From: Oscillospiraceae bacterium MB08-C2-2
GTDB lineage: Bacteria > Bacillota > Clostridia > Oscillospirales > Ruminococcaceae
Assembly (NCBI GenBank): GCA_035621215.1
Contig: CP141729.1
Coordinates: 642,944 to 706,943, forward strand
Direction of reading: 5' to 3'
Length of the DNA: 64,000 bases
Part shown: positions 13,015 through 49,844 of the stretch, in pieces
Position numbering within the stretch: position 1 is the stretch's first letter
How the letters are laid out: every line of letters begins with the position of its first letter
Notes under the pieces: generated by a model
Told to the model about the DNA's origin: nothing
The model's input: the letters and a program-made list of their open reading frames with translations, nothing else
Database searches by the model: none
Position numbers and translations under genes: made by a program

Positions 13015-13071
13015 TAATAAAAAGGTATGGGTGCGGCAAGTGCTCAGCACAAAAGAAGCACTTCTTGCACC
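13015..13071 (-). terminator. riboswitch-linked terminator hairpin
   Basis: GGTGCAAGAAGTGCT pairs imperfectly with AGCACTTGCCGCACC on the minus strand, followed by CATACCTTTTTATTATA. It starts right after the P1 3' strand of the lysine aptamer, the place expected for the expression platform. Confidence 0.65.
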
Positions 13072-13252
13072 GATAGCTCTTCATCAATAGCAATGATGAC
13101 AGTCACAGGCCTATTCGGCTTTGCAACCAGGCAACCACCCACCGCTCTGGGGTTAGTTCCTTCGGCGGCTCACCCTTTCACCAGAGACAATTGCTTGCGG
13201 TAAGCTGTCTTTCCGGTTACTATTGAGAGTCGCACCTCTATCCAGTATATGC
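13066..13252 (-). ncRNA. lysine riboswitch (L box)
   Basis: The minus strand carries the conserved L-box blocks in order: GGATAGAGGTGCGA, then AGTAA, then GAAAGGGTGAGCCGCCGAAGG, then GACTGTCA, and a closing GAGCTATC that pairs with GGATAG to form P1. Lysine binding should favour the terminator hairpin just downstream and shut off asd-dapA-dapB. I identified it by matching these blocks to my memory of the Bacillus lysC leader; a covariance search would fix the exact ends. Confidence 0.93.
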
Positions 13253-22311: not shown

Positions 22312-22453
22312 TTGCTCCACAGGCCGGAATTTGTGCTGGGGTTGCCCCACAGATTTGCCCGACCCTGACGCTTTGGAGAAAACGGAGAGGCATCCGCCGA
22401 ATTTTCGATTCACCTCTCACCTCGTCAACCGGTTTTTGCCGGTTCTGGCGCTT
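22312..22453 (-). ncRNA. glmS ribozyme-riboswitch
   Basis: The minus strand reads AGCGCCAGAACCGG, then GTTGACGAGG, then ATCGAAAATTCGGCGGATGCC, which are the conserved catalytic-core blocks of the glmS ribozyme (the last block is 21 bases at 22388-22408 with key parts TCGAAA, TTCGGCGG and GATGCC). Cleavage would fall between A (22452) and G (22451). A G/C-rich P3-P4-like part ends near 22312. In this class glucosamine-6-phosphate acts as cofactor for self-cleavage of the glmS mRNA. The 3' end is approximate. Confidence 0.93.
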
Positions 22454-22538
22454 TGCTTTGATACAGGTATTTTTCGATCACCTCCACCAATAAAAATTGC
22501 GCTTTTTGATCCTCCCTTCTTTTAGTATATTCGAATTC

Positions 22539-47846: not shown

Positions 47847-48608
47847 CTACTGTGTTATTTCGGTCATCGTATTGTATTGCTGGGTTTCCATGTCGGGCGG
47901 AATTTCCACTTGCAGGTATTCCAGCACCGAGCACAAGGTGACAAAAGCAAGCTTGCTTTGGTATTCTGGATCAGCCAGCTTATAAGCCTCGGTACGATTG
48001 GATAAAAATCCGCATTCGATAAGCACAGCAGGGCATTGTGCTTCGTACATCAAAAAAAGGTTTTTGCCTGCGGATTTTTGCAGCCTCTTATTTTCCGGCT
48101 GAAGCATCTCCACCATATTCTGTTGGATGGTAGAAGCAAGCTCTTTGCTTTCCTCATTGTTTGGGCTGTAAAAAATCTGTATCCCATTGGAGCGGGAATC
48201 ACCAAATTGATTCTGATGAATGCTGAGGAATAAGGCGTTGGGGTAGCTGTTCATAATAGACAGACGGTTATGCAAATCAGAGGTTTTCTGTTTCTTCGCA
48301 CCTTTAATGCCCTCATCGTGGATAGAGCGGTCATCCTCACGGGTCATAACCACTGTAAAGCCGGAAATTTCCAGTTGATCCCGCAGCATAAGGGCGATGG
48401 AAAGGTTTATATCCTTCTCTACGATTTTATCTACCCCCACGGCTCCCCCATCCTGTCCCCCGTGGCCCGGATCTAAAATAATTACAGGCAGGTTGCTGAC
48501 TGTTCCTATGGCAGGCAGAGCCCCACCCACCCTCTGAACGGAAAACACCATAGCCAACGTGCAAAGCAGGCCGACCAACCCTAAAAGAAGCCGTTTGTGC
48601 ATCTTCAT
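47847..48608 (-). CDS. cwlD: N-acetylmuramoyl-L-alanine amidase, CwlD-like
   Basis: A zinc amidase that cuts the MurNAc-L-alanine bond. An N-terminal membrane anchor or signal (about 4-22) is followed by an Amidase_3 domain: IILDPGHGGQDGGAVG (first zinc histidine), EKDINLSIALML (zinc glutamate), LFLSIHQNQF (second histidine) and the catalytic ALIECGFLSN-like VLIECGFLSNRTEA. The TREDDRSIHDEGIKG segment with a K-rich stretch resembles CwlD, the germination-specific amidase that makes muramic lactam in the spore cortex. The start is uncertain: ATGs at 48614, 48608 and 48602; GAGG fits 48608 best. Confidence 0.82.
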   Translation of the reverse strand: MKMHKRLLLGLVGLLCTLAMVFSVQRVGGALPAIGTVSNLPVIILDPGHGGQDGGAVGVDKIVEKDINLSIALMLRDQLEISGFTVVMTREDDRSIHDEGIKGAKKQKTSDLHNRLSIMNSYPNALFLSIHQNQFGDSRSNGIQIFYSPNNEESKELASTIQQNMVEMLQPENKRLQKSAGKNLFLMYEAQCPAVLIECGFLSNRTEAYKLADPEYQSKLAFVTLCSVLEYLQVEIPPDMETQQYNTMTEITQ

Positions 48609-49028
48609 CCGCATCGCCTCACATTCAACAGCTTCTGCGGAGCTTCCTCCCCTGCCCATTGGCGGCTGAGAAACAACAACTTCTATATTATCACCGCAGA
48701 TTAGTATAGGGTATGCGAGACAAGGCTTTGGTTATGCCAAAATGTATCACTATAAAGTGCAAAGGAGCCGCTGCTGAGAGCGTAGACTTAAGTCTACGCT
48801 CTCTATGGGGGGCATCCAATGCCCCCCATATTCCCCCCGGATTGTGCCGACTCGGCACATAAAGTGGTATTCCTGCGTCAAAATCAATTTAACGCAGGAA
48901 ATATTACGAATCAAAACTACAGTATCTTTTTTGGTTGATTAAAGGCCTTATATCTACAGCCTAAGCCGCTATTTGATATCCGGAAAGGAGCGGCTCCAAA
49001 TTATGCATTTCTATTTTTGCCTAGCAGA
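48609..49028. other. intergenic region with clustered hairpins
   Basis: No gene is seen. On either strand it holds, in order, GAGAGCGTAGACTT/AAGTCTACGCTCTC (48776-48803), ATGGGGGGCAT/ATGCCCCCCAT (48805-48829), TGTGCCGA/TCGGCACA (48843-48859) and TTCCTGCGT/ACGCAGGAA (48870-48900). GGAGCCGCT at 48764-48772 can pair with AGCGGCTCC at 48989-48997 and would enclose all four. No terminator U-run follows any of them on the minus strand. Confidence 0.6.
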
Positions 49029-49844
49029 TCAATCCTCACAAATGCTCTCCAGATATTCCACCAAATCGGCTAAGGCTCCGTCCTGACAGGTTCCCACCAC
49101 CAAATCAGCGGCATCCTTTAAATCCTGCGGAGAATCCTTCAAGGTAACGCCAATACCGGCCAACTTGATCATTTCCATATCGTTATAGAAATCCCCGATG
49201 CAGACCAGATTTTGCAGCGGGACATTCTCCATTTTAACCAGCTCAGTCAAAGCTGTTGCTTTGGAACAGCCCTCGGGAAGCATCTCCTGAAGGCGGTAAT
49301 TGGTGGCGACAAAGCGCACACCGGGGTAATTGCCGTTGTTTACATGCTCATAAAAGGCATCAAACTGGGATTCATCAATAAAGAAAAGCCCTTTACGCCA
49401 CGGCAGAGGGATTTTATCCAGATCGGGGCAGAAGGCATACCGGCGGCCCTTGTCATTCTGCTGATCCTTTAGGGTGGTATCCTCTCGGATTATGTAGTAA
49501 TTATCCGATACAACCAAAGCCTCACAGGTGGGCACGGCTTCTTCCACCATGCGGAAATAAGGGCGGGCCTGTTCCGGCAAAACCCAATCCTTGAGAATCT
49601 TTCCGGTGTTGTAATCGTAAATCATGCCGCCGTTATACATAACGCAAGGGAAGTTGATGGGCAGATGCCCGAGCAGCTCCTTTAGTTGAATGGGAACCCG
49701 CCCGGTGGAAAGACCAAACCGGCCTCCCTTGGCAATAAAGCGGTTGAGGGCTTCAACGTTTCGCGCAGAACGCTTATGGTCTCTGGTTATCAGAGTGCCA
49801 TCCACATCGCTCATAATCACCATATCCTGTATTCTGCGTTTCAT
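49029..49844 (-). CDS. Cof-type HAD hydrolase (paralogue A)
   Basis: A 271-residue HAD-superfamily phosphatase with a Cof-type (C2) cap. The nucleophile aspartates are in MSDVDGTL (about 11-18), the threonine/serine motif in LSTGR, and the acidic motif in CIGDFYNDMEMIKLAG (about 219-234). Substrates of this group are sugar phosphates, FMN or similar. Its C-terminal GALADLVEYLE and overall layout match the next gene upstream, so the two are probably a tandem duplication. Confidence 0.88.
   Translation of the reverse strand: MKRRIQDMVIMSDVDGTLITRDHKRSARNVEALNRFIAKGGRFGLSTGRVPIQLKELLGHLPINFPCVMYNGGMIYDYNTGKILKDWVLPEQARPYFRMVEEAVPTCEALVVSDNYYIIREDTTLKDQQNDKGRRYAFCPDLDKIPLPWRKGLFFIDESQFDAFYEHVNNGNYPGVRFVATNYRLQEMLPEGCSKATALTELVKMENVPLQNLVCIGDFYNDMEMIKLAGIGVTLKDSPQDLKDAADLVVGTCQDGALADLVEYLESICED

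Follow-up and report, generated by a model that had tools for sequence, protein, structure and literature searches.

Hairpins and fold of the region

What is the run of hairpins that has a cwlD-like amidase gene on one side and a HAD hydrolase gene on the other, and why does it appear to be closed by a stem formed by its two distant ends? The region lies in a 64,000-nt stretch of the genome of Oscillospiraceae bacterium MB08-C2-2, which we call the window. A preliminary description had considered a structured non-coding RNA, a leader of the cwlD-like gene, or a miniature mobile element with 9-bp inverted ends. That interpretation as a whole is partly supported. We believe that positions 48776-48963 are very likely a non-autonomous MITE of the IS1182 family, moved in trans, which targets hairpins and duplicates them.

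A direct check of the window sequence found all four of the separate inverted repeats described within 48764-48997, with arms of 14, 12, 7-8 and 9 bp (Table 1). The reported 9-bp complement is also there and exact: GGAGCCGCT (48764) pairs with AGCGGCTCC (48989). A perfect 9-bp pairing between 15 nt on the left and 40 nt on the right of a 188-bp stretch occurred at 6 of 4000 random window places, so the outer pairing is unlikely to be chance. The 281-nt region has a folding energy of -115.3 kcal/mol vs a shuffled mean of -67.3 (z -10.1, with 0 of 200 shuffles as low), and its opposite strand folds about equally well (z -9.7). The loop region of hairpin 4 is GAAATCAATTC/GAAGTGAATTC-like. The ORF list holds no ORF of at least 60 aa within 48776-48963.

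With Rfam 15 there was no match at or above the gathering score in the region, nor was there one over the element in related loci. Elsewhere in the window, a lysine riboswitch (13066-13248, -) and a glmS ribozyme (22312-22463, -) score well above their Rfam gathering scores. We rejected the idea that the internal hairpins are intrinsic terminators because on the + strand no T run follows any of the four; the terminator-like parts are the flanking target hairpins.

Table 1. Coordinates of the element, its parts and its surroundings in the window.
Feature	Positions	Strand	Remarks
cwlD-like N-acetylmuramoyl-L-alanine amidase gene	47847-48659	-	PF01520
Left flank, best read as remnant of the duplicated target hairpin	48764-48775		
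Miniature IS1182-type element (very likely MITE copy)	48776-48963	+	188 bp; dispersed homologues number at least 40
Left terminal inverted repeat GAGAGCGTAGACTT	48776-48789	+	Alignment A1; compared with IS ends
Hairpin 1	48776-48803		14-bp perfect arms GAGAGCGTAGACTT/AAGTCTACGCTCTC; contains left inverted repeat
Hairpin 2	48804-48830		12-bp arms, loop CCA; family signature GGGGGGCAT-CCA-ATGCCCCCC
Linker CCCCCCGG	48833-48840		Near-invariant in alignments A1 and A3
Hairpin 3	48843-48859		7-8 bp; counterpart in the wider family, assigned by order and preceding linker, is P4, a G+C-rich hairpin
Hairpin 4	48870-48900		9 bp; counterpart is hairpin P5 of the wider family
Right terminal inverted repeat	48950-48963	-	Alignment A1; reverse complement TAGGCTGTAGATAT
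Right flank, intact target-hairpin copy AGCCGCT...AGCGGCT	48964-48997		-11.2 kcal/mol; downstream of HAD gene
HAD-type hydrolase gene	49029-49844	-	PF08282; target hairpin just behind 3' end

Copies in the host genome

A whole-genome search found the element in about 40 places including the window's own, besides self-complement matches, and on both the 3.2-Mb and the 72-kb contigs. The others share 76-88% identity with the window copy, and the matches mostly span query positions ~34-178. Allowing at most one mismatch, the hairpin-2 signature occurs 45 times in the host genome (22 forward and 23 reverse) and 0 times in the reversed control. We count at least 45 copies in all. Against the 185-bp consensus, many copies have 92-97% identity; the window copy, at 80%, is among the more diverged.

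The two ends of the ~185-bp consensus element are related inverted sequences, GAGGGTGTAGACA and CAGACTGTAGACA, and the terminal inverted repeats are imperfect (GAGGGTGTAGACAAAAG / CAGACTGTAGACATAAA, 12/17 alike). At the window copy, the right end TAGGCTGTAGATAT is slightly decayed relative to the consensus right end CAGACTGTAGACAT, which is found genome-wide. Sequence similarity among copies ends at the element boundaries, which we set from flush target duplications in other copies. Since these boundaries lie inside the outer 9-bp stem, that stem is not part of the element, and it is probably not the closing stem of an RNA.

Simple ORF calls put the host's copies between genes, with one questionable ORF overlap (L049) as the exception, and just three of them between divergent genes. 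They show no orientation preference. The window copy is in reverse orientation to both flanking genes and more than 40 unrelated sites carry the element, so a leader of the cwlD-like gene is not supported. One host locus (L012 of G000, the host genome) holds two complete same-orientation copies, at 1500-1684 and 2227-2410, within ~0.9 kb, and each has a hairpin duplication of its own. Another (L183; G000:C1 ~540294 and ~543563) holds two inverted copies of one coding sequence ~3 kb apart, which by eye resembles the N-terminus of an IS21-type transposase. We did not find a prior description of the repeat in the literature searched, which was open-licence papers only.

Target hairpins and their duplication

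In many copies a direct repeat abuts both ends of the element and is itself a hairpin, for example AAGGCCGCAGGATATTTTCCTGCGGCC (L004) and AAACACCGCACAACCCAAGTGGCTGTGCGGTGTTT (L012). For the host's own copies we took 1640 mismatched flank pairs as the control, and in 20 of 41 copies the flanking direct repeat exceeded its 99th percentile. The remaining 21 had no duplication above control; the window copy, which scores at the threshold, is one of these. Copies in related genomes had a direct repeat above control in 29 of the 33 measurable cases. These repeats are 15-36 bp long, 23 of the 29 are flush at both ends, and their mean internal stem is 10.5 bp vs 3.8 bp when shuffled. The duplicated repeat is usually a complete terminator-like hairpin. 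Taken with the intergenic and rarely divergent sites, the abutting hairpin repeats tell us that the element targets hairpins, typically terminator-like ones, at gene ends, and that the whole hairpin is duplicated.

The flanks of the window copy can be read in the same way. The left flank AAAGGAGCCGCT (48761-48772) is 11/12 like AAAGGAGCGGCT (48984-48995), a score that equals but does not exceed the control threshold; the target duplication of this copy is decayed. For the 9-bp pair at 48764-48772 and 48989-48997, the best reading is a decayed host hairpin into which the element inserted. When a target is palindromic its two flanks stay complementary, and the result is an apparent 9-bp closing stem. 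The suggestion of a miniature mobile element was thus right as to the kind of object, but the supposed 9-bp inverted ends are host target sequence, and the true ends are at 48776 and 48963.

Probable IS1182 partners

We found neither a PF13751 transposase nor any IS1182 transposase in the host genome. A search of that genome for an autonomous partner by end motif returned only further decayed copies and no IS, and a regex search for paired ends around ORFs in the fetched loci returned none. MITEs can outlive their partner transposase or be apart from it.

Partners are present in related genomes. In one Butyricicoccus genome and in bin54, IS1182-type transposase genes have TTTGACAGTCTGA or CCTGACAGTCTGA, together with a hairpin, immediately behind them. 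The C-terminal sequence of the transposase has relatives in 24 of 295 genomes of the order, and within the genus 3 of 11 genomes have the partner transposase. Complete IS elements from Oscillospirales are 1500-1571 bp long with ends CAGNCTGTCRAAAAA; the ends of complete IS1182-family ISs in this order (CAGNCTGTC...) match those of the element, and these ISs are flanked by the same kind of hairpin duplication. Eight of the ten complete ISs have exact palindromic (hairpin) repeats of 20-35 bp at both ends (e.g. AACGGCCATTGCTTATAAATAAGCAATGGCCGTT), and one complete IS in the same genus (G004) has a 24-bp hairpin repeat. Against NCBIfam NF033551, the IS1182 transposase model with a cut-off of 270, their transposases reach 400-424 bits; they also match PF13751 and PF05598.

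The elements and the ISs share the end pattern CAG/GAG-N2-TGT; copies in bin54 have GAGCGTGTCGAAAAAG vs CAGCCTGTCGAAAAAG in the IS. The host family has 7-10 of the first 13 bases in common with the IS ends; for the same-genus IS the figure is 7-9, a likeness of the outer bases only. IS1272, a member of the IS1182 family, has been reported to insert into terminator hairpins (PMC4923244; PMC5678879), which fits the target seen here.

The many independent copies and the autonomous partners are the basis on which we read the element as a MITE. Most likely, an IS1182-family transposase places it into gene-end hairpin terminators and duplicates the terminator each time. Four points count against this reading: the partner transposase was not found in the host genome, the likeness to the ends of the same-genus IS is confined to the outer bases, 21 of the 41 own copies show no duplication above control, and the internal covariation (below) is strong, more than mobility obviously needs. 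As for mechanism, a transposase supplied in trans would recognize the CAG/GAG-N2-TGT ends and insert the element into a hairpin, usually an intrinsic terminator behind a gene. The two strands would be cut on either side of the whole hairpin, perhaps at the base of the extruded hairpin, and repair would then duplicate the hairpin on both sides of the element. The long closing stem in the window would be what remains of such a target.

Relatives in other genomes

Among GTDB genomes, at least 120 stretches carry the hairpin-2 signature, nearly all of them from Oscillospirales. Within the order its distribution is patchy, with 13 of 394 genomes having it, and 5 of 398 other genomes across the phylum have single one-mismatch matches that are plausibly chance. 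The conserved core recurs across Oscillospirales, with many gut bacteria among the hosts. By a covariance model, Angelakisella massiliensis has at least 137 copies and bin54 has 93; genomes of Agathobaculum, Flavonifractor and Butyricicoccus have 6-19 each. Angelakisella massiliensis also has two near-identical tandem arrays (L267:455-1936 and L268:418-1915), each of about ten 150-bp units, which are the same core with hairpin 1 included (98-99% matches). Several contigs of bin54 and bin70 start or end inside the element (L065, L083, L085, L099, L160; MAG contig ends), so the repeat probably breaks metagenome assemblies.

Most of the copies examined in Flavonifractor, Agathobaculum and Butyricicoccus have no hairpin 1 and hence no left end. 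These copies start ~10 nt after a same-strand stop codon in 21 of 26 cases vs 15% in a random control, and in 16 of 19 cases in five named genomes. The 21/26 count comes from an in-frame stop test, which replaced greedy ORF context because the latter is unreliable in G+C-rich genomes. Judging names by eye from the translations, the operon neighbours include rpmJ-rpsM, purH-purD, serC-serA and rplI-dnaB (copies at L061:543-682, L055:1089-1228, L111 near 2755 and L076:2858-2997) as well as a carA operon, and some copies occupy the same place in different species.

Random insertions are not expected to keep a fixed position behind stop codons, which suggests that the core was domesticated or was captured by the transposon. 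One tentative possibility, to which we give somewhat less than an even chance, is that a domesticated core acts in operon mRNA (in segmental stability, processing or read-through), or that IS1182 MITEs captured an element of operons.

Covariation and alternative explanations

Following up homologues for compensatory changes had been proposed in the preliminary description. Dispersed copies turned up in the host and in related genomes, and the changes are found among the own copies as well as across genera. Double compensatory changes occur at 17 of 44 pairs in the host's own copies vs 2-8 in slid controls, with 28 compensatory cells vs at most 9. In hairpin 1, both sides changed in 8 of 12 pairs across copies. 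Across genera there are 127 compensatory cells vs 29-38 in slid controls, and all 8 measured pairs of the P3 stem vary compensatorily. Such changes in the hairpins indicate that the structure is maintained.

The structure could have been kept by mutation and not by selection, with template switching in palindromes correcting imperfect stems to perfect ones. The P3 stem has few wobble intermediates relative to complete pair exchanges, and both strands behave equally in the host genome, which speaks for template switching. However, it leaves unexplained why conservation across genera extends to the hairpin 2 loop, the CCCCCGG linker and other unpaired positions, and we put it at about one chance in four.

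A second alternative is that the core is a structured non-coding or cis-acting RNA that works in transcripts (in mRNA 3'-end stability, processing or attenuation), with dispersal being secondary. The very strong compensatory change in both data sets speaks for an RNA, as do the relatives without a left end that sit sense-oriented behind stop codons in core operons. However, the own copies have neither an orientation preference nor a wobble strand bias (28 G-U vs 32 A-C cells, favouring neither strand), A-C exceeds G-U on the sense strand across genera, mostly at recurrent positions, and Rfam has no match. The G-U vs A-C test gave no support for the + strand in the own genome or across genera, and we consider this alternative unlikely, at around one chance in five.

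We rejected a switch in which the G run pairs with the second C run (48833-48838), because the distal GATACCCCC does not follow the Y/R change of hairpin 2. In two host copies (L019 and L032) the runs around hairpin 2, one of G and two of C, have shrunk together from six to five; this is only suggestive, either as a subfamily trait or as a sign of alternative pairing.

Dispersed extragenic palindromes near gene ends could also belong to a REP/REPIN-like family mobilized by a REP-associated tyrosine transposase, but this is very improbable given the terminal inverted repeats, the long target duplications and the DDE-transposase partners with the same ends. Group IIC introns insert behind terminator hairpins, but a degenerate one is just as improbable here: the element has inverted ends and no group II match in Rfam, and its target hairpin is duplicated on both sides, which group IIC introns are not known to cause.

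Significance and comparison with known systems

If our reading of the element as an IS1182-family MITE is right, its dozens of copies and their autonomous partners amount to naturally replicated evidence for transposition that recognizes the shape of a DNA hairpin. By duplicating terminators, one small element can rewire gene ends genome-wide. The analysis also exposes an unannotated superfamily of structured repeats in common gut bacteria, and the copies fixed inside core operons are candidates for a regulatory role.

Intercistronic REPs are hairpin units found behind stop codons in operons. The operon copies described here recall such REP/BIME units in being sense-oriented hairpin units behind stop codons, but they are longer, have several hairpins, and are related to an IS1182 MITE rather than to a tyrosine transposase.

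ERIC, Correia/NEMIS and BOX are dispersed, intergenic, MITE-like repeats with stable stem-loops, some of which alter the transcripts that contain them (PMC10969869). Our element is likewise a dispersed, intergenic, MITE-like repeat with stable stem-loops, and it differs in sequence, host group, mobilizer and target rule.

IS1182-derived MITEs are already known: the ISMac2 derivatives of Methanosarcina acetivorans are IS1182-family MITEs of 160-169 bp (PMC3852290), and the repeat described here is a variant of this kind of element. Like them, it is short, non-coding, multi-copy and attributed to an IS1182-family IS. Unlike them, it has another host group and sequence, duplicates a whole hairpin (~15-36 bp), and has a conserved multi-hairpin core inside.

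The closest parallel in targeting is IS1272/TnSha1 of Staphylococcus, which shares the IS1182 transposase family and targets hairpins, often terminators, without a primary sequence preference (PMC4923244, PMC5678879). IS1272, the best-studied relative, reportedly deletes or replaces a part of the hairpin and does not duplicate it (PMC4923244, PMC5678879), whereas the element described here duplicates the hairpin in its entirety.
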